In this document: positions 42,446-50,900 of the stretch, piece after piece
How the letters are laid out: each line of letters begins with the position of its first letter
How positions within the stretch are numbered: the stretch's first letter is position 1
Source: Polyangium spumosum
GTDB lineage: Bacteria > Myxococcota_A > Polyangia > Polyangiales > Polyangiaceae
Direction of reading: 5' to 3'
Length of the DNA stretch: 64,000 bases
Assembly (NCBI RefSeq): GCF_009649845.1
Contig: NZ_WJIE01000006.1
Span: 186,001 to 250,000, forward strand
The notes under the pieces: generated by a model
Database searches by the model: none
Told to the model about the DNA's origin: nothing
Seen by the model: the letters and a program-made list of their open reading frames with translations, nothing else
Translations under genes and position numbers: made by a program

Positions 42446-42889
42446 TCAAGGGAGCGCGCCGCCGCCCCACGGCACGAGCACCAGGAACACGAACGCCACG
42501 AGCACCAGCATCAGCACGCTGGTCACGAGGTACGTCGAGCGCGGCGAGCGCGACGTGCTCCACCCGTCGCCGTAGAACTTCCCGCGCGAGCGCGTGCGCA
42601 GCTTCTTCTGCACGCCTCCGAGCAAGCTCGGCGCGACGGAGCCCGGCGGCGGTCGTAACGCGCGCCGGAGCAGATCACGCACCTCGACCTCGTCGAGCGG
42701 CGCCTCCGCCTCCTCCTCGTCCTCGTCCTCGTCGTCGTCCTCGGCCGTGGCCTTCTCTTCCTCGTCGAGCCAGCGCTCCGCTGCGGCCGCGAGGCGCGCG
42801 GCTTGCTCGTCGGTGAGCTCGTCGCCCTCGTCCACGCGATCCGGATCGTCGGCCGGCGCGCCCGCCTCTCGCTTTCGCTTCGCGCTCAT
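42446..42889 (-). CDS. Small acidic single-span membrane protein, putative sigma-factor partner
   Basis: A 147-residue protein with a cytosolic N-terminal part holding a long Asp/Glu run (about 45-65), then a basic segment R-G-K-F-Y-G-D-G-W-S-T, and one membrane helix near the C-terminus with almost no outer tail. It overlaps the upstream ECF sigma gene by four bases (ATGA). It has no zinc-binding HxxxCxxC motif typical of ZAS anti-sigma factors. A role as an anti-sigma or membrane tether is inferred from coupling and topology only. Confidence 0.7.
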   Translation of the reverse strand: MSAKRKREAGAPADDPDRVDEGDELTDEQAARLAAAAERWLDEEEKATAEDDDEDEDEEEAEAPLDEVEVRDLLRRALRPPPGSVAPSLLGGVQKKLRTRSRGKFYGDGWSTSRSPRSTYLVTSVLMLVLVAFVFLVLVPWGGGALP

Positions 42890-43512
42890 GCCTTCTTCTC
42901 GCCTTTCAGCTTGTCGCCGAGCGCCTTCTCGACCAGGGCCCGGAGCTGCGCGCGGGCGCGGAAGATGCGGCTCTTCACCGTGCCCTCCGGCAAGCCCGTC
43001 ACCTCCGCGATCTCGTCGTACGACATGTCCTCCACGTCGCGCAGGATCAGGACCTCGCGGAAGTCCGCGTCGACTTGCTCGATCGCGCGCTTCACGATGC
43101 GCTCGAGCTGCATGCCCTCGAGGATCTCGTCCGGGCGGTTGATCGCGCCGCTCACCGTGACGCCCTTGCCGGCGTCGCCCGTCACGCGGTCGGCGATCTC
43201 GTGGACGTCCTCCTGCTCGCCCACCTTGCGCCGCGACAGGTACTTCGCCTTGTTCTTGCAGAGGTTCACGGCGATCCGGAAGATCCACGTCGAGAGCTTC
43301 GACTCTCCGCGGAACTGATCGATCGCCTTGAAGACCTGGACGAAGACCTCTTGCGCGAGGTCCTCGGCCTCCTCGCGCCGCCCGATCATCCGGAACACGA
43401 GCGCGAACACGCGCCGCTCGTAGGCGACGACGAGCTCGTTGAAGGCCGACTCGTCCCGCGCCACGAGACGCGCGACGAACCTGGCCTCCTCGGTCTCGTC
43501 GTCGCTCGTCAC
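42886..43512 (-). CDS. ECF (RpoE-type) RNA polymerase sigma factor
   Basis: A 208-residue sigma-70 family protein with region 2 (about 25-90: VVAYERRVFALVFRMIG, EDLAQEVFVQVFK, STWIFRIAVN) and region 4 (about 140-195: ILRDVEDMSYDEIAEVTGLP, EGTVKSRIFRARAQL). This is the RpoE/SigW layout. A linker of about 30 residues joins the two. It starts at GTG 43512 and its stop overlaps the acidic membrane protein gene (ATGA), so the pair is coupled. tRNA-Gln lies 50 bases upstream on the same strand. Promoter targets cannot be inferred. Confidence 0.93.
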   Translation of the reverse strand: MTSDDETEEARFVARLVARDESAFNELVVAYERRVFALVFRMIGRREEAEDLAQEVFVQVFKAIDQFRGESKLSTWIFRIAVNLCKNKAKYLSRRKVGEQEDVHEIADRVTGDAGKGVTVSGAINRPDEILEGMQLERIVKRAIEQVDADFREVLILRDVEDMSYDEIAEVTGLPEGTVKSRIFRARAQLRALVEKALGDKLKGEKKA

Positions 43513-43564: not shown

Positions 43565-43638
43565 TGGTTCCGGCGCATGGATTCGAACCATGATTAGGGG
43601 ATTCAAAGTCCCCCGTCCTGCCCTTAGACGACGCCGGA
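43565..43638 (-). tRNA. tRNA-Gln (anticodon UUG)
   Basis: A complete 74-base cloverleaf read on the minus strand: acceptor TCCGGCG/CGCCGGA, D-arm with GTC..GAC, anticodon stem GGGGA/TCCCC with loop CTTTGAA (anticodon TTG), T-arm CATGG-TTCGAAT-CCATG, and an encoded CCA end. It decodes CAA and CAG glutamine codons. It stands alone, upstream of the ECF sigma gene. Confidence 0.96.
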
Positions 43639-44746: not shown

Positions 44747-44881
44747 GAGACGCCCCCTTCACGAGCAAACACGGACCACCCGCAGCCCTCGCGGAGGGGC
44801 GAGAGATGGGTGATCGGCGTGACCTGGGGGGCTCCTACAGGATGGGGGGGAGGTCGGCCAAGTTTTCGCGTGGCCAGCGCT

Positions 44882-46051
44882 TCACGCGTCCAGCGCTCGG
44901 CAGCAGAACGTGGTCGCGCGATCAGGGTTCGGGACGACGGCGCCCGTGGGCTCTCCGCCGCTCGTCGCGCACGCGCCGGGGATGTACTCGGGCGGCGTGA
45001 TCTCCTTGCTGCCGATCGCGAGGCCCGCGATCGAAACGTTCGAGCACTGCTCGACGGACGACGAGATCGCGTCGTCGGAGATGAGCTTCGCACACGCGCC
45101 ATCCTCGAAGGTGCGCACACGCGCGAGGCAGGCGCCGCCGGCAGGTGCGCCGCATTCGCACGCGGTGCACGCGCGCCCGTCGATCGCGCCGGCCTTGTCG
45201 TCGTCGTAGGCGACGAGCTCCTTGGCGTTCCACGTCTCGGGACACGCATGGAAGCCGGAGAGAGAGACGCAGTGCGCGAAACCTTCGGGCAGCGGGGCCA
45301 AGGTCCGCATGCACGCTTCTTTCGGGTCCTCGCACGTCGGGAGGTAGCAAGAGATCGCGTGTGTCTTCCAGGTCCACGTGGGGCCGCTCATCGTGGGCGT
45401 TCCCGCGTGCGGTGGCTTCTCGGCGGGAATGACGACGGGCTCGCAACCATCCTCGACCGGAGGGCCGAGCGGCGAGACGGCGAGCGACTGCGCGCACAAG
45501 GTCCCGCCGCACATCGCCCCCGCGGGGATCGCATTCGCGTTCGTGCAGGACCCGTCCCACCCGTCGGGGCCTCCGAAGGGGAGCGCGGTCCCCTGCTGTG
45601 CGCATAGGGCGGCGCGGACCTCGATGGTCTCCGGAAGCGTCGTGCAGGTGCCCGTGGGCGCCGTGCATCCGCAGGGCTCGCACGTCCCGTACTCCCACTC
45701 CAGATCGGCAAAGGCGCGCGTACGGAGACCCATGTCCATGTTCTCGGGGCAAAACGTGGGGGCCTTGCTAGCGTCGCCGATCCAGACGGCGCGCGGATCG
45801 CTCCATCCGTCGGGGCCTCGCGGGATGCACGGGCCCGTGCAGCCGATGGCTGAGGTTTCTCCCGCGTCGCTCGCGTCCGTTCCGGCATCCGGCAGGACAC
45901 AGAGCCCGTCGACGCAAATGTCGGGCTCGCGGCACGGGAAGGCCGGTTCGCAGGGGAAATCAAACGGCTCGGAGCCGCATCCCTGGACGGTGCCCACGAA
46001 AGCCCCGAGCAGGACGCCGAGCAGGACACAACCGGACAGCTTGGAGTGCAT
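44882..46051 (-). CDS. Cys-rich putative lipoprotein, unknown function
   Basis: A 389-residue predicted lipoprotein (lipobox V-Q-G-C, Cys 25) with about 35 Cys, implying many disulfides outside the cell. Repeated segments such as C-E-P-C-G-C-T-A-P-T-G-T-C and A-C-T-A-C-E-C-G-A-P-A-G-G-A-C suggest internal duplication of a small Cys-rich unit. No Gly linker is present, unlike other lipoproteins here. No family recognised. The start is uncertain between 46051 and GTG 46060. Confidence 0.72.
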   Translation of the reverse strand: MHSKLSGCVLLGVLLGAFVGTVQGCGSEPFDFPCEPAFPCREPDICVDGLCVLPDAGTDASDAGETSAIGCTGPCIPRGPDGWSDPRAVWIGDASKAPTFCPENMDMGLRTRAFADLEWEYGTCEPCGCTAPTGTCTTLPETIEVRAALCAQQGTALPFGGPDGWDGSCTNANAIPAGAMCGGTLCAQSLAVSPLGPPVEDGCEPVVIPAEKPPHAGTPTMSGPTWTWKTHAISCYLPTCEDPKEACMRTLAPLPEGFAHCVSLSGFHACPETWNAKELVAYDDDKAGAIDGRACTACECGAPAGGACLARVRTFEDGACAKLISDDAISSSVEQCSNVSIAGLAIGSKEITPPEYIPGACATSGGEPTGAVVPNPDRATTFCCRALDA

Positions 46052-46084
46052 GCAGGACACCGTACCATGAAGGACAAACCCAGG

Positions 46085-47284
46085 TCAATGCCTAGGAAAA
46101 ACCACAAGCGCGCTGAGGTTTGTCAGGAGCTGGGGCCCGGTCCATAGCTCGTCACCACCATGGCGAATCGGGTAGTCGTCGAGGAGGATCGCAGCGTCCA
46201 CGGCCAGACGTATTTCAGCAGGGCCGATAGAAACGAGCCTGCCTTGACCGCCTGCGCCAAACCCAAGGTAGGGCCTCCAGATCGAGACGGTGCCCCGTGA
46301 TTGCTCGATCACGCCTGTTGTTCCGAGCAGGCACCCCGAAAACCTGCCCCCTGTCGCGCATAAGGCAGGCCACGCGCCGAAGATGACGCCACGGATGGCC
46401 GATCCCTCCAACTCGCGAGCCGATTTGGCCCCGCGGATGTCGAGCCGGGCGGAGAATACTTCGCCAAATGGCCATTCCGAGGACGCGACGAAGCCGAACG
46501 CTGGCAGCGGCGAGACCGCGCCATAAATGGCCGTCGCCCCGAAGGCCGGGCTCCATCGCCGGGGCTTCGAGCTCGGCGCAGATTTCGGGGAGCTCGGTGC
46601 CGGTGGGGGCTTCGAGCTCGGCGCGGAGCTCGGGCTTGGCGCAGAGCTAGCCGGCCTCGACGCCGCAGGCAGCTCGGGAGCGGGCGGCGAGCTCGGCGCG
46701 GGGAGGGGCGTCAGTACGAGCGAGACCCGGACGCGTCCACCCTTGGGAGCCTCGATCGTCTCGATGGCATCGCGGAACCCGGCAAGGCTCGCGCGGACCT
46801 CATGCCGCCCTGGCGACGTGAACACGTAAAACTCGCCCGCGGTGGACGCCTCGCGCTCGAGCTCGCCATCGATCAGCACGTCGGCACCGAGATGGCTCAG
46901 CGCGATGTCGACGCGGCAGACCTGCGGGCGGGCGCGTTCGTAGGCGTCGACGATCTTGCGCCGCTCGGCGTGCGGGACGTCGTGCCCATCGATGATGGCG
47001 CGGAGCAGGTAGCTCACGGCTTCGCCCGTCGCGCCCCCTTCGAAGGCGACGAGCCCGAGGCGGCCGACGATCGCGGGATCGTCACGGATGCGAAGAGCTT
47101 CGCTGTAGGCGTGAACGGCCGCGGAGGTCCGGCCCGCGGCGCGGGCGCGGTCCCCCTCGCGCACGAGCTCGGCGAACCGCACGGCTTGGTCGATGCGGCT
47201 CGGGGGGCCGGCGTGCTCGTCGGCGTGCGCCAGGCCGGAGGCGAGCACGAGGACCAGGGCGAGCACGAACCGCGCGAGGGCCAT
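46085..47284 (-). CDS. TPR and PEGA-domain envelope protein
   Basis: A 399-residue exported protein (signal peptide ending L-A-H-A from ATG 47284; an ATG at 47335 overlaps the preceding stop as ATGA and would add 17 residues). It has a TPR-like region (about 35-110), a PEGA domain (about 120-185: ALSHLGADVLIDGELE, S-P-G-R-H-E-V-R-A-S-L-A-G-F), a Ser/Pro/Lys linker and a beta-rich C-terminal part that may be a barrel. PEGA domains are found in surface and S-layer-linked proteins. It is third in the sigma-factor operon. Confidence 0.8.
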   Translation of the reverse strand: MALARFVLALVLVLASGLAHADEHAGPPSRIDQAVRFAELVREGDRARAAGRTSAAVHAYSEALRIRDDPAIVGRLGLVAFEGGATGEAVSYLLRAIIDGHDVPHAERRKIVDAYERARPQVCRVDIALSHLGADVLIDGELEREASTAGEFYVFTSPGRHEVRASLAGFRDAIETIEAPKGGRVRVSLVLTPLPAPSSPPAPELPAASRPASSAPSPSSAPSSKPPPAPSSPKSAPSSKPRRWSPAFGATAIYGAVSPLPAFGFVASSEWPFGEVFSARLDIRGAKSARELEGSAIRGVIFGAWPALCATGGRFSGCLLGTTGVIEQSRGTVSIWRPYLGFGAGGQGRLVSIGPAEIRLAVDAAILLDDYPIRHGGDELWTGPQLLTNLSALVVFPRH

Positions 47285-47331
47285 GGAGCGTGATCGTATC
47301 CATGGCCAACGCTCGCGGGGGCCTCGAACGC

Positions 47332-47571
47332 TCATCGGCGGGCGCGTAGTGGGCGCGTCGCGTTGAACGCGGTCCGATGAACCTCATCCCAGACTTGCCC
47401 CGCCTCCTCGCTCGTGAGTTCGTATCCGACGAACCGCTTGCGCCCGGCCAAAGCCCCGGGAGGTAGGCTCTCCTCGTTCACGTACAGATGGCCGTCACTC
47501 CCGATGGCAAACTCGGTCGGCAGCTCGGAGACCTCGGTCGTGTCGTCGATGTTCTGGGCGTCCTTCGACAT
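47332..47571 (-). CDS. Small hypothetical protein in the sigma-factor operon
   Basis: A 79-residue acidic cytosolic protein with no signal peptide or membrane segment. It has short beta-strand and helix elements (IGSDGHLYVNEESLPPG, then R-K-R-F-V-G-Y-E-L-T-S-E-E-A-G). I do not recognise it. Its stop overlaps a possible start of the PEGA gene by four bases. It lies 86 bases after the membrane-anchored sigma factor and could be a regulator or substrate of that module. Confidence 0.6.
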   Translation of the reverse strand: MSKDAQNIDDTTEVSELPTEFAIGSDGHLYVNEESLPPGALAGRKRFVGYELTSEEAGQVWDEVHRTAFNATRPLRARR

Positions 47572-47657
47572 GGCATCACCGTGCTGGCGCGATGAAGTAC
47601 AGGAGCCCGCGCGCCATCGGGATTCCCGCCCCGGGCTCCAGGAAGGGCCCGTGGAGA

Positions 47658-48704
47658 TCAACGGGGGAGGCGGTGCGCCTCGCCTCTCGTGTGCGTGAAC
47701 GCTGGCCGACCGAGGCGAAGGGCGCGGCGCGCGTCGTCGCTCAACGTCTCGGCGCGTGGTGCGCGCGTGGCGGGCGTCGAGGCCGGGGCGCTCGTCGGCT
47801 GACTCGGGGGAGCGCTCTCTTGCACCTCGCCAAGCTCGATGCTCACGGGTGGCACGAGGAGACCGCTGCGGGCGAGCTCGGGGCGCTCGGGAGACCAGAC
47901 GAAGAGGAAGACCAGGAACGCCACGCACGCAGGACCGAGGAGGAGAAGCACGACCAGGGCGGCGAGCTTCGGCGCAGTCGTCGGGATCGAGGCGAGCCAG
48001 GGAGCTGCGGGAATGGTCGTGAGAAGCGGAGGAGGTGGGGGCGGAGGGCCACCGGGCCCGCCTCCGCCGAACGAAGGGAGACCCCCGTGCACGGCAAGGA
48101 TCGCGGCCATCGCGGCGCGGATCTCCGGATCGAAGACGATCGCGCCGGGGAGGAGCACGACGCCGCGCCGCTCTTCGCGCTCGTCGTTTGCGCGGAGCCG
48201 CTTGGCGAGCTGCACGCAGGCCCGAGAAATCCGGCTGTGCACGGTGCCCACGGGCATCCCGTACAGGGCAGCGATCTCGGGCTCTGTGTACCCGAGGACC
48301 TTGTTAGCGATGACCATGCGGCGCGTCGCTTCATCGCCGAGCTCTTCGAGCACGTCGAGCAACGCGAGTGCGACGGCCGCTTGCTCTTCGAGGCTCGGCC
48401 CGCGGGCCTCGAGGTCGTCGATGACCACCCCGCTTTGGCGGGCCACGCGCCGGGCCTCGCGGCGCCTGTGGTTCTGGGCGATGCGCACGGCGAGCATGAA
48501 GAGCGCGCGGCGGGCCTCGGTGGGGCTCGTCGGGATGCTCGCGGGGGCCTCGGTGACAGCCAGCCAGACCTCTTGCTCCGCATCAGCGGCGCTGATGGCC
48601 GGAACCCGCAGCCAACGGAACCAGTGCGGGAGCTGGGCGGCGTACGCCTGGTAGAGGTCGGCGAACGAACCGAGGGGAGACGCGGCGGGCTCGGGGGTCG
48701 TCAC
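47658..48704 (-). CDS. ECF sigma factor fused to a transmembrane segment
   Basis: A 348-residue protein. Residues about 5-75 resemble sigma region 2 (LYQAYAAQLPHWFRWLR, A-D-A-E-Q-E-V-W-L-A-V) and about 105-165 region 4 (VLGYTEPEIAALYGMPVGTV with H-S-R-I-S-R-A). A Gly/Pro-rich linker leads to a strong membrane helix (about 235-260) and a Pro/Ser/Ala-rich tail of about 80 residues beyond it, predicted outside the cytosol. Fusion of an ECF sigma factor to a membrane anchor is unusual and implies release by proteolysis or tethered action. GTG 48704 has AGGA six bases upstream. It heads a three-gene operon. Confidence 0.85.
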   Translation of the reverse strand: MTTPEPAASPLGSFADLYQAYAAQLPHWFRWLRVPAISAADAEQEVWLAVTEAPASIPTSPTEARRALFMLAVRIAQNHRRREARRVARQSGVVIDDLEARGPSLEEQAAVALALLDVLEELGDEATRRMVIANKVLGYTEPEIAALYGMPVGTVHSRISRACVQLAKRLRANDEREERRGVVLLPGAIVFDPEIRAAMAAILAVHGGLPSFGGGGPGGPPPPPPPLLTTIPAAPWLASIPTTAPKLAALVVLLLLGPACVAFLVFLFVWSPERPELARSGLLVPPVSIELGEVQESAPPSQPTSAPASTPATRAPRAETLSDDARRALRLGRPAFTHTRGEAHRLPR

Positions 48705-49601
48705 GTGTCCTATTGGGCAGGCTCGCGGGCGTTTCCGTGCGTCCCTGGGACGATTTTTTCTGACGCGGGGCGGCGCGTCTACGGTGTGCACCCCTCGGAA
48801 GCGCGACCGGTTACCATCGACCTGTCGGAACATGGTCATGGGGCCGCCGGGATCCGGGAACCCTCTCTTCCCGGAACTATCTCGGGGGCCTTGGTCTGCG
48901 TCTCATGGCGCTATTTCGGCCGACGGTGCCGAGAGTTGTGTTTCAGCTCGCGTCCTGGTATCGTCGGTTCATCGCGCGCCTTTAGCGGCTCCGTTCCGTG
49001 GCGTGCCTTATAAGAGAGCCTTTCCGCAGGCTATTGCGATTACCGCCGGCCTGAACGCCGGACTGCTCCAATTCGATTGTTCGCGTCGAGGAGATCGGCT
49101 TGAGCGAGACCGAAGCAGAAGCGTTTTGCGCATTAGCTAATTTTCTGATCAAGTTCGTGTGGGCCCTGTTCCGGCTCAGCCGCACGAATCGTGTATTATT
49201 GCAGCCTCGTGGACGACGGGTCTGTACCGACCCGCGTTGCTGCGGCACATGAAGTAGTGACGGCCGAGTTCGCCCTGCCGGTGCATGCGCGCTCATGGGC
49301 GAGCTCGGCCTCTTGCTCTACCGGGTATACTGGCCCTCATTCTGACGGTCGCCAAGTCGGCCTTCCCGGCCGTCACCTGACGAGCTGCACCCGTGGGCCG
49401 CACGCGCGCGAGCACCCCTTGCGTCCGAGGACTTTGCCGGGCGGCTCTCCGCGCGTGTGCCACCCAGGCGACGTGGAGGCGTACTCCGAGCTTGACCGAT
49501 GCCGCGAGATGTGCAGCCGGCCATGCACAAGCCAGCGCAGCACGCCGCGGCTCGCGTCGGGGATCGACCCGCGCGAGCTCGCGGAACACTCGCTTCGAGC
49601 G
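48705..49601. other. Unexplained 0.9-kb gap
   Basis: No convincing gene. Part of it (about 49020-49210) is less GC-rich than the surroundings, with stretches such as GCATTAGCTAATTTTCTG. One 50-codon frame from TTG 49100 to 49252 has GAGGAG seven bases upstream (MSETEAEAFCALANFLIKFV, then a basic part) but its codon use and start are poor evidence. It could be a remnant of a mobile element or an RNA gene; I cannot decide. Confidence 0.4.
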
Positions 49602-50900
49602 CTACACGCCCTTGATGACCTCGCACCCCATGAACGGCCGCAGCACCTCGGGCACCACCACCGTCCCGTCCTGCTGCTGGTACTGCTCCAGGATCGCGAT
49701 CACCGTCCGGCCGACCGCGAGCGCCGAGCCGTTTTGCGTGTGCAAGAGCCGCGGCTTCGCCTTGGGCTCGGGCCGGTAGCGGATCGCCGCGCGCCGCGCC
49801 TGGTAGTCGCCGAAGTTCGAGCAGCTCGAAATCTCGCGATAGAGGCCCTGCCCAGGTAGCCATACTTCGAGGTCGTACGTCTTCTGCGAAGCACCACCCA
49901 TGTCGCCCGCGCAGAGAAGCGACACGCGGTAATGGAGCTTCAAGCGCTTGAGGACCTCCTCCGCGTGTTGCGTGAGCTTCTCGTGGCTCTCGGCCGAGGT
50001 CTCGGGCGTCGAGAACCGCACGAGCTCGACCTTGTCGAACTGGTGTTGCCGGATGAGGCCACGCACGTCCTTGCCGTGGCTGCCCGCCTCGGCCCGGAAA
50101 CAGGGCGTGTACGCGGTGTACGCGAGCGGGAGCTTGTCCGCGTCGAGGATCTCGTCGGCGTGCAGGTTCGTCACGGGGACCTCGGCCGTCGGGATCAGGT
50201 AGAGGTCGTAGGCCCGCTCGGGGTCACTCTTGTGCGTCTTGAAGAGGTCGTCGGCGAACTTCGGGAGCTGGCCCGTGCCGAAGAGGGCCGCGTCCTTCAC
50301 CAGGAAGGGCGGGAGGATCTCGGTATACCCCTGCTCGCGCGTGTGCAGGTCGAGCATGAAGTTGATGAGCGCGCGCTCGAGCCGCGCCGCCGCCCCCCAG
50401 AGCACGGTGAAGCGCGAGCCCGAGAGCTTCGCCCCGCGCGCGAAGTCGAGCACGCCGAGGCCCTCGCCGATGTCCCAGTGCGACTTCGGCGTGAAGCCGT
50501 ACGAGGGTTTGTCGCCCCAGGTCCGCACGACGACGTTGTGGCTCTCGTCCTGGCCGTCGGGGACCGAAGGGTCGGGCAGGTTCGGGACGAGGGCGAGCTG
50601 CTCCTGGATCTTCGCCTCGACCTCCTTCAGCGCCTGCTCGGCGTCCTTGATCTCGCCGGACAGGCGCTTCAGGGCCTCGCGTTGCTCGGTGAACTCGGCG
50701 GACTTCTTGTCCGCCTTGGCCATCTTCTCGTTGGCCTGGTTGCGCGCGGCGGCCTTGCTCTCGGAGAGCGCGATGAGCTCGCGGCGCTTCTGGCCGAGCT
50801 CGGCGATGGGGGCGAGGGCGGCCGCGGCCGCGGGCGAGCGCCGCGCCAATGCGGCGCGGACGTCGTCCATGTGATCGACGACGTGGCGGAGGTCCAGCAT
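49602..50900 (-). CDS. serS: Seryl-tRNA synthetase
   Basis: Charges tRNA-Ser, and starts selenocysteine synthesis on tRNA-Sec where present. The 432-residue class II synthetase has the long antiparallel coiled-coil arm (about 30-110), motif 2 ([12 protein letters not shown]) and motif 3 ([13 protein letters not shown]). Normal length. It starts 48 bases after clpB on the same strand, so read-through from clpB is likely. Confidence 0.97.

Follow-up and report, generated by a model that had tools for sequence, protein, structure and literature searches.

A sigma factor with a predicted membrane anchor and its putatively mobile envelope module in Polyangium

Extracytoplasmic function (ECF) sigma factors with C-terminal membrane fusions are already known from ECF48, ECF52 and ECF53 and from IutY, as set out in the part of a review that deals with them (PMC8999054). 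The same part states that IutY is released by Prc and RseP and names it as the only membrane-anchored sigma factor whose proteolytic activation has been characterised (PMC8999054). Here, we analysed a stretch of 64,000 nucleotides from Polyangium spumosum (contig NZ_WJIE01000006.1, positions 186,001 to 250,000 of the forward strand; hereafter the window), which carries a gene for an ECF sigma factor with a predicted membrane helix behind the sigma core. The gene heads an operon encoding predicted envelope proteins, and the operon lies in DNA that appears to be mobile.

Sigma core, anchor and operon partners

Region 4 of the window sigma factor matched Pfam Sigma70_r4_2 (PF08281) at 33.4 bits, above the cut-off of 25.7 (expectation value, E, 3.6e-8), and region 4 alone fitted that of SigR with a target TM-score of 0.86. 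Region 2 stayed under its Pfam cut-off (Sigma70_r2, PF04542, E 0.22); PF04542 exceeded the cut-off in the relative L042, and the region contains a DAEQEVW stretch that we take to be the region-2.2 motif. The superfamily model TIGR02937 gave a full-length match of 37.4 bits, missing its cut-off of 42.9. We built a structure model from eight aligned members (mean predicted local distance difference test score, pLDDT, 66; predicted template modelling score, pTM, 0.51), and it contained the helices of both regions. Its top Foldseek matches in the PDB were ECF sigma factors (best E 1.3e-3), and no PDB match was found at E <= 0.001. These results agree with the ECF identity given in the first-pass annotation, with the reserve that region 2 falls below the cut-off. 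The GTG start at 48704 is backed by the copy in Polyangium fumosum DSM 14668, the one named relative, whose frame lacks any earlier start.

After region 4, the model placed a hairpin (residues 182-191) and a helix (193-206), followed by a disordered Pro/Gly linker, a helix at 244-270, and a tail with one short helix (323-332) and pLDDT mostly below 50. A single hydrophobic segment starts at residue 251 (Kyte-Doolittle mean 2.96 over 19 residues), inside the predicted helix and well C-terminal of region 4. The tail is rich in Pro, Ser and Thr, and also in Arg. No Cys was found between region 4 and the helix and no zinc-finger Pfam match in the protein; likewise, no anti-sigma family appeared in Pfam or among the 25 of 48 NCBIfam matches listed for it. 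The linker, single strong helix and roughly 80 further residues described earlier were all recovered as such (residues 213-243, 244-270 and a 78-residue tail), and the helix lies outside the sigma fold.

We then compared the protein with its relatives. A search of 59 related genomes, covering the best candidates per genome, found full-length relatives, among the matches listed, in the same genus only. The alignment held eight full-length proteins (the window copy included) and one broken by a contig end; the sigma core and the element after region 4 were common to all, and the Gly-rich linker and membrane segment to the eight. A ninth full-length member is split between the two ends of contig G004:C2; read across them, it shows the same helix and tail. 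The overall plan was kept in all nine, as was a strong hydrophobic segment (Kyte-Doolittle 2.34-3.02). After the helix, a juxtamembrane motif, A-R/C-x-G-L-x-V-P, was present in 8 of the 9 (window, L032, L033, L036, L038, L039, L040 and C2) and missing from the sigma factor of contig G002:C9 (C9). We also searched 317 genomes of the class with a profile of the C-terminal part, scoring no more than 14 candidates in each genome. Fourteen genomes matched, but a wider spread was rejected: in the 8 that are not Polyangium, the matching frames contain no sigma core, which leaves true members in 6 of 317, every one a Polyangium. The plasmid and viral collections yielded no relative of the window sigma factor, and the viral collection none of the C9 sigma factor.

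The ratio of nonsynonymous to synonymous rates (dN/dS) against the P. fumosum copy was 0.42 for the whole sigma gene (0.31 in the core and 0.19 in the element that follows region 4), compared with 0.11 for serS. The element's value (0.052/0.270) was the lowest of the five regions in this comparison, and not the lowest against L033. The sigma gene is thus under real, if modest, constraint.

Downstream, the order in the window is sigma gene, a gene for a 79-residue protein, a gene for a TPR/PEGA protein, and one for a Cys-rich protein. The first-pass annotation had the two genes after the sigma gene right, but it counted three genes in the operon and missed the fourth. Its view that the tether sits in the sigma chain itself, at the head of an operon with envelope proteins, is well supported and holds in other Polyangium genomes: the loci of full-length relatives also contain the TPR and Cys genes. 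A small gene related to the 79-residue gene follows the sigma gene in the window, L032, L033, L036 and C2. In the window copy of the TPR/PEGA protein, PEGA (E 0.04) and TPR_16 (E 2e-5) were both under their Pfam cut-offs, and PEGA exceeded it in the C9 relative. The model of this protein (mean pLDDT 79, pTM 0.44, with the placement of domains uncertain) showed a signal helix, TPR-like helices, a sheet at the PEGA position, a linker and eight long strands. The barrel part matched NspA (Z 16.3, 3.0 Å, 144 residues) and the OmpA domain (Z 16.1, 2.0 Å, 128 residues); absence from this list of fold matches carries no weight. The protein is thus predicted to end in an OmpA-like barrel of outer-membrane type. 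The VQGC at the start of the Cys-rich protein is lipobox-like. PADLOC, used to look for defence systems, gave no match for the four operon proteins.

Expansion and mobility of the module

To the earlier description we add the mobility of the module and its multiplication within the genome. The whole operon lies inside a 4.7-kb insertion after serS (Table 1). In 2 of 5 sister genomes this site is empty: only 2 bases (G005) or 7 bases (G004) separate the aligned end of serS from the aligned next gene, and both genomes carry the module at other places. The same gap holds 4.7 kb with the whole operon in G000, and 2.4, 3.9 and 3.5 kb of other DNA in G001, G002 and G003, the last keeping a remnant of the Cys gene end. 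The site after serS is an insertion hot spot whose content differs between Polyangium genomes (L103, L104, L105).

The module was also found on two contigs with integrase genes. Contig G002:C9 ends in a perfect terminal overlap of 2,775 bp and hence appears to be a circle of 23,882 bp. Contig G004:C2 (18,712 bp) lacks such an overlap; here the evidence for a circle is that the sigma gene continues from one end into the other. The two integrases share 94% identity. Within the window insertion, a short integrase-gene relic matched an integrase-like stretch of G004:C2 (10643-10696; 89% over 55 bp), the integrase gene of that contig (84% over 56 bp) and that of C9 (82% over 56 bp). The relic rests on the DNA match because the integrases gave no protein-level match to the insertion at E <= 1. 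The insertion after serS in G002 holds a stretch resembling another part of the integrase gene. No attachment-site core common to the insertion and the two contigs was found. The insertion with its empty sites and the presence on apparently circular contigs indicate that the module moves, and that it does so in at least two backbones; with its site occupied in one genome and empty in close relatives, it qualifies as cargo of mobile elements.

G004:C2 (L091, L037) carries the sigma operon together with a tyrosine integrase, and its gene at contig positions 14766-17366 presumably encodes a VgrG-like protein. On the chromosome of G004, L034 (5124-6301) is an apparent deletion product, in which the start of the sigma gene is joined to a later portion of the Cys-rich gene and the 79-residue and TPR genes are lost. 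A tRNA gene was considered as the integration site and set aside: none lies at the insertion, and the sole tRNA gene of the window is tRNA-Gln (43565-43638).

We next counted such sigma factors in the genome. There were 71 region-4 matches at E <= 0.001, 64 of them above the Pfam cut-off. At least 100 residues follow region 4 in 21 of the 71, and 7 of these 21 have a segment of hydropathy >= 1.8. The first-pass annotation had presented a tethered ECF factor as exceptional; these numbers, and the C-terminal fusions already described, do not bear that out. A TPR/PEGA-barrel or Cys-rich homologue lies within about 1.5 kb of 17 of the 21 tailed ECF factors (16 from the genome survey, the window copy being added from the locus comparison) and of 0 of the 50 others (Fisher p = 6e-13). 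The tailed factors lacking such a neighbour are L134, L110, L113 and L128; we take the first three to be TPR- or SnoaL-tailed ECF factors of known kinds. By these counts, this is an expanded family, with many paralogous modules in the genome.

Across six Polyangium genomes, the TPR-barrel profile gave 13, 9, 23, 9, 17 and 12 matches at E <= 1e-20, some of them partial. Seventeen of these 83 were examined as loci (9 of the 17 being rows of the search profile), and they contained a Cys gene in 17 and an ECF gene within 1.5 kb in 11. Outside Polyangium, 13 loci with partial TPR matches were examined, and 2 of them (L211 and L212) had a tailed ECF factor as well as a Cys-rich homologue no more than 1.5 kb away; in L212 the hydrophobic segment is weak (1.15).

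The C9 contig also carries a gene block (L041 4606-14116) of nine recurrent genes, encoding a transglutaminase-like protein, an ATPase, LysM and SpoIID proteins, a conserved 399-residue protein and others. All six Polyangium genomes searched have at least one copy of the block, and some have several. Relatives of its 399-residue protein were found in 6 of 6 Polyangium genomes, with one weak match elsewhere, in 317 genomes. We examined 16 of the 20 other matches of this protein as loci (L189-L204); 13 of the 16 held eight or nine block proteins, and a Cys-rich homologue was present in 11 of the 16 and in C9. ECF genes were found in 12 of the 17 block loci (C9 and the 16); 11 have tails of at least 130 residues, and the remaining one is truncated where the locus ends. 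The ECF profile had 28 training rows, among them the L190 gene and the C9 gene. For scale, 71 region-4 matches in 10.8 Mb amount to 0.13 per 20-kb stretch. Maximum hydropathy of the tails ranged from 0.93 to 2.71, so that not all are strongly hydrophobic. Loci lacking an ECF gene were L189, L193, L194, L197 and L200; L193, L197 and L200 are short contigs, and the L189 contig has a tailed ECF gene 2.5 kb outside the examined stretch. The 399-residue protein, whose profile used 14 of the 17 loci, had no match in phage or viral collections and no PDB match below E 0.8. PHROG gave weak matches only: of 14 members, one matched 'major head protein' (E 0.088) and five matched a family without a name (E 0.0015 at best). 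Possibly, the block is a virus-like or other new mobile element.

Upstream of the sigma gene, an exact AAAAATCGWC box was found in 10 of 12 aligned upstream regions and had diverged in L042 and L043. With up to one mismatch, it occurs 250-900 nt upstream of region 4 in 3 of 17 tailed ECF factors and 0 of 51 others (L128 counted as tailed; L134, L110 and L113 among the others; the window copy and two in L150 left out), an enrichment that is suggestive only. As a regulon motif the box was rejected: G000 has 27 sites against 2 for the reversed pattern, but many sites seem by eye to be coding, so the reversed control is poor and no regulon is claimed.

A second ECF gene lies on the minus strand at 42889-43512 (region-4 match 42943-43098), about 1.4 kb past the insertion end. 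It is followed by a small minus-strand gene (42449-42889) that may encode its regulator, and a gene for a 291-residue protein and the tRNA-Gln gene lie between it and the insertion end.

Table 1. Coordinates in the window of the sigma gene, its parts and its surroundings
Feature	Position	Strand	Remarks
ECF sigma factor with C-terminal membrane anchor	47658..48704	-	348 residues, GTG start
Sigma region 2, residues 12-92	48429..48671	-	D41, A42 and Q44 invariant in 9 rows; model helices
Sigma region 4	48207..48365	-	PF08281 match; fold match
Conserved element after region 4, residues 176-212	48069..48179	-	Beta hairpin and helix, no Cys
Pro/Gly-rich linker, residues 213-243	47976..48068	-
Membrane helix (predicted), residues 244-270	47895..47975	-	Hydropathy and model
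Tail, residues 271-348	47661..47894	-	78 residues, mostly disordered in model
AAAAATCGTC box	48749..48758	-	44 nt before sigma start
79-residue protein	47332..47571	-	No Pfam match
TPR/PEGA protein	46085..47284	-	Signal peptide-like start, TPR, PEGA, Pro/Ser linker, 8-stranded barrel; 399 residues from ATG at 47284
Cys-rich protein	44882..46051	-	Lipobox-like VQGC; alternative start GTG at 46060; no Pfam match
4.7-kb insertion after serS	44874..49599	.	Whole operon inside; site empty in L106 and L107
Integrase-gene relic, by DNA	49539..49594	+
serS, insertion flank	49602..50900	-

Proposed release of the sigma factor and its rivals

Our preferred reading, to which we give about an even chance, is that a one-piece membrane-anchored ECF sigma factor heads an envelope-spanning module and is freed by cutting. 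The barrel and the lipoprotein-like protein would report an event at the outer surface or in the envelope, and the TPR/PEGA arm would relay it across the periplasm to the sigma tail. One or two cuts in or beside the membrane helix would then free the sigma domain for transcription of its operon and of a local regulon. With many mobile copies, the cell or the elements would in this way possess a set of separate surface-to-gene switches. The system would reach from the promoter at one end, with the inner membrane in the middle, to the outer membrane as modelled at the other; it resembles cell-surface signalling, with sigma factor and anchor fused as in IutY. As in the first-pass annotation, envelope sensing with regulated release, proteolysis included, is something we infer. 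The genome has 10 stretches matching M50 proteases, which adds weak support, as all 14 control genomes also match.

Several observations weigh against this reading. The main difficulty is topology: in eight members, 0-1 Lys or Arg residues precede the helix and 0-3 follow it within 12 residues. Positive charges do not mark the sigma side, and the positive-inside rule gives no support to an outside tail. Against the P. fumosum copy, the helix, with just 27 codons, had a dN/dS of 1.0 and the tail one of 0.64, and the sigma gene is less constrained than serS; the more distant L033 copy gave 0.29 and 0.44 for helix and tail. The distance from sigma to TPR gene is about 1.7 kb in L038-L040, and many genes separate them on the C9 contig. 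Among the 17 tailed factors with module neighbours, L173, L174 and L175 are below the Pfam region-4 cut-off, and several other tailed factors have weak hydrophobic segments. Finally, the homology search found no 79-residue gene in the L038-L040 and C9 loci.

This last result also tells against a rather unlikely alternative, in which the sigma factor is active while tethered, or is held by the 79-residue protein as a soluble anti-sigma factor, the helix only positioning it near the envelope with no proteolysis: the helix is kept in those loci, and the 79-residue protein matches no Pfam family, anti-sigma or other. The related small genes in the window and four further loci speak for such an arrangement, and the element after region 4 could, by the model, contact the sigma domain. 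There is only a slight chance that the tail is cytoplasmic or that the hydrophobic segment fails to cross the membrane. The Arg-rich tail and the few positive charges before the helix fit this, but the segment is strong in every full-length member, and the neighbouring proteins have signal peptide-like and lipobox-like starts.

The module may, as a tentative possibility, mainly serve mobile elements, with envelope sensing timing element genes or a surface change excluding competing elements. Its presence on apparently circular contigs and in the insertion is consistent with this, as are the ECF and Cys-rich genes of the nine-gene-block loci; however, the window copy and C2 lack that block, nothing ties the sigma factor to element promoters, and no match identified the block. 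It is improbable that the window copy is what is left of an integrated element in decay and no longer has a function. The integrase has shrunk to a short relic, and broken copies occur in sister genomes (L034, L035, L043), but all four operon frames are open, and synonymous exceed nonsynonymous rates in the sigma, 79-residue and TPR genes against the P. fumosum copies.

Comparison with known systems

Among the titles and abstract openings listed in our searches of open-licence papers, there was no account of such modules in Polyangium. We tentatively suggest that Polyangium may harbour a family of mobile elements whose common mark is a one-piece anchored sigma factor linked to an outer-membrane TPR/PEGA barrel and a lipoprotein of its own. 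This would be a surface-to-promoter switch that can be transferred and that exists in about 17 versions in one genome. If so, elements or host could use it to sense what is at the cell surface, such as rival elements, prey or kin. Sigma factors with a built-in anchor are little studied, and here the genes for anchor and tail, for a predicted barrel and for a lipoprotein-like protein form a compact, repeated set that moves between replicons. The module offers a testable model of transcription control by one transmembrane protein, and may explain some of the abundance of ECF factors in large myxobacterial genomes.

SigN of Bacillus subtilis is not known to be a membrane-anchored ECF factor. It is comparable in being a plasmid-borne sigma factor (of pBS32), and the part of the study bearing on its control describes repression by LexA (PMC6751061). 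Myxobacterial ECF factors with regulatory extensions include, in the review sections on these groups, ECF220 and ECF276 (Sorangium), ECF216 (Myxococcus) and ECF270 (Anaeromyxobacter) (PMC8999054). ECF52 (SCO4117 of Streptomyces coelicolor) likewise has a C-terminal membrane helix and a proline-rich region (PMC5826349, PMC8999054). By their account, ECF52 is confined to Actinobacteria and carries both a zinc finger and a carbohydrate-binding module, neither of which was detected here; the Polyangium protein has its Pro/Gly stretch ahead of the helix and is encoded together with predicted outer-membrane partners. IutY (ECF243, Pseudomonas putida) also joins sigma factor and membrane anchor in one chain, according to the passages on it (PMC8999054). 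It differs in that no fused anti-sigma domain was detected in the Polyangium sigma factor, whose partner is an 8-stranded TPR/PEGA barrel. In our judgement, membrane-fused ECF factors as such are already known, and what is new here is a one-piece tethered sigma factor with predicted outer-membrane partners, expanded within a genome and carried on mobile DNA.
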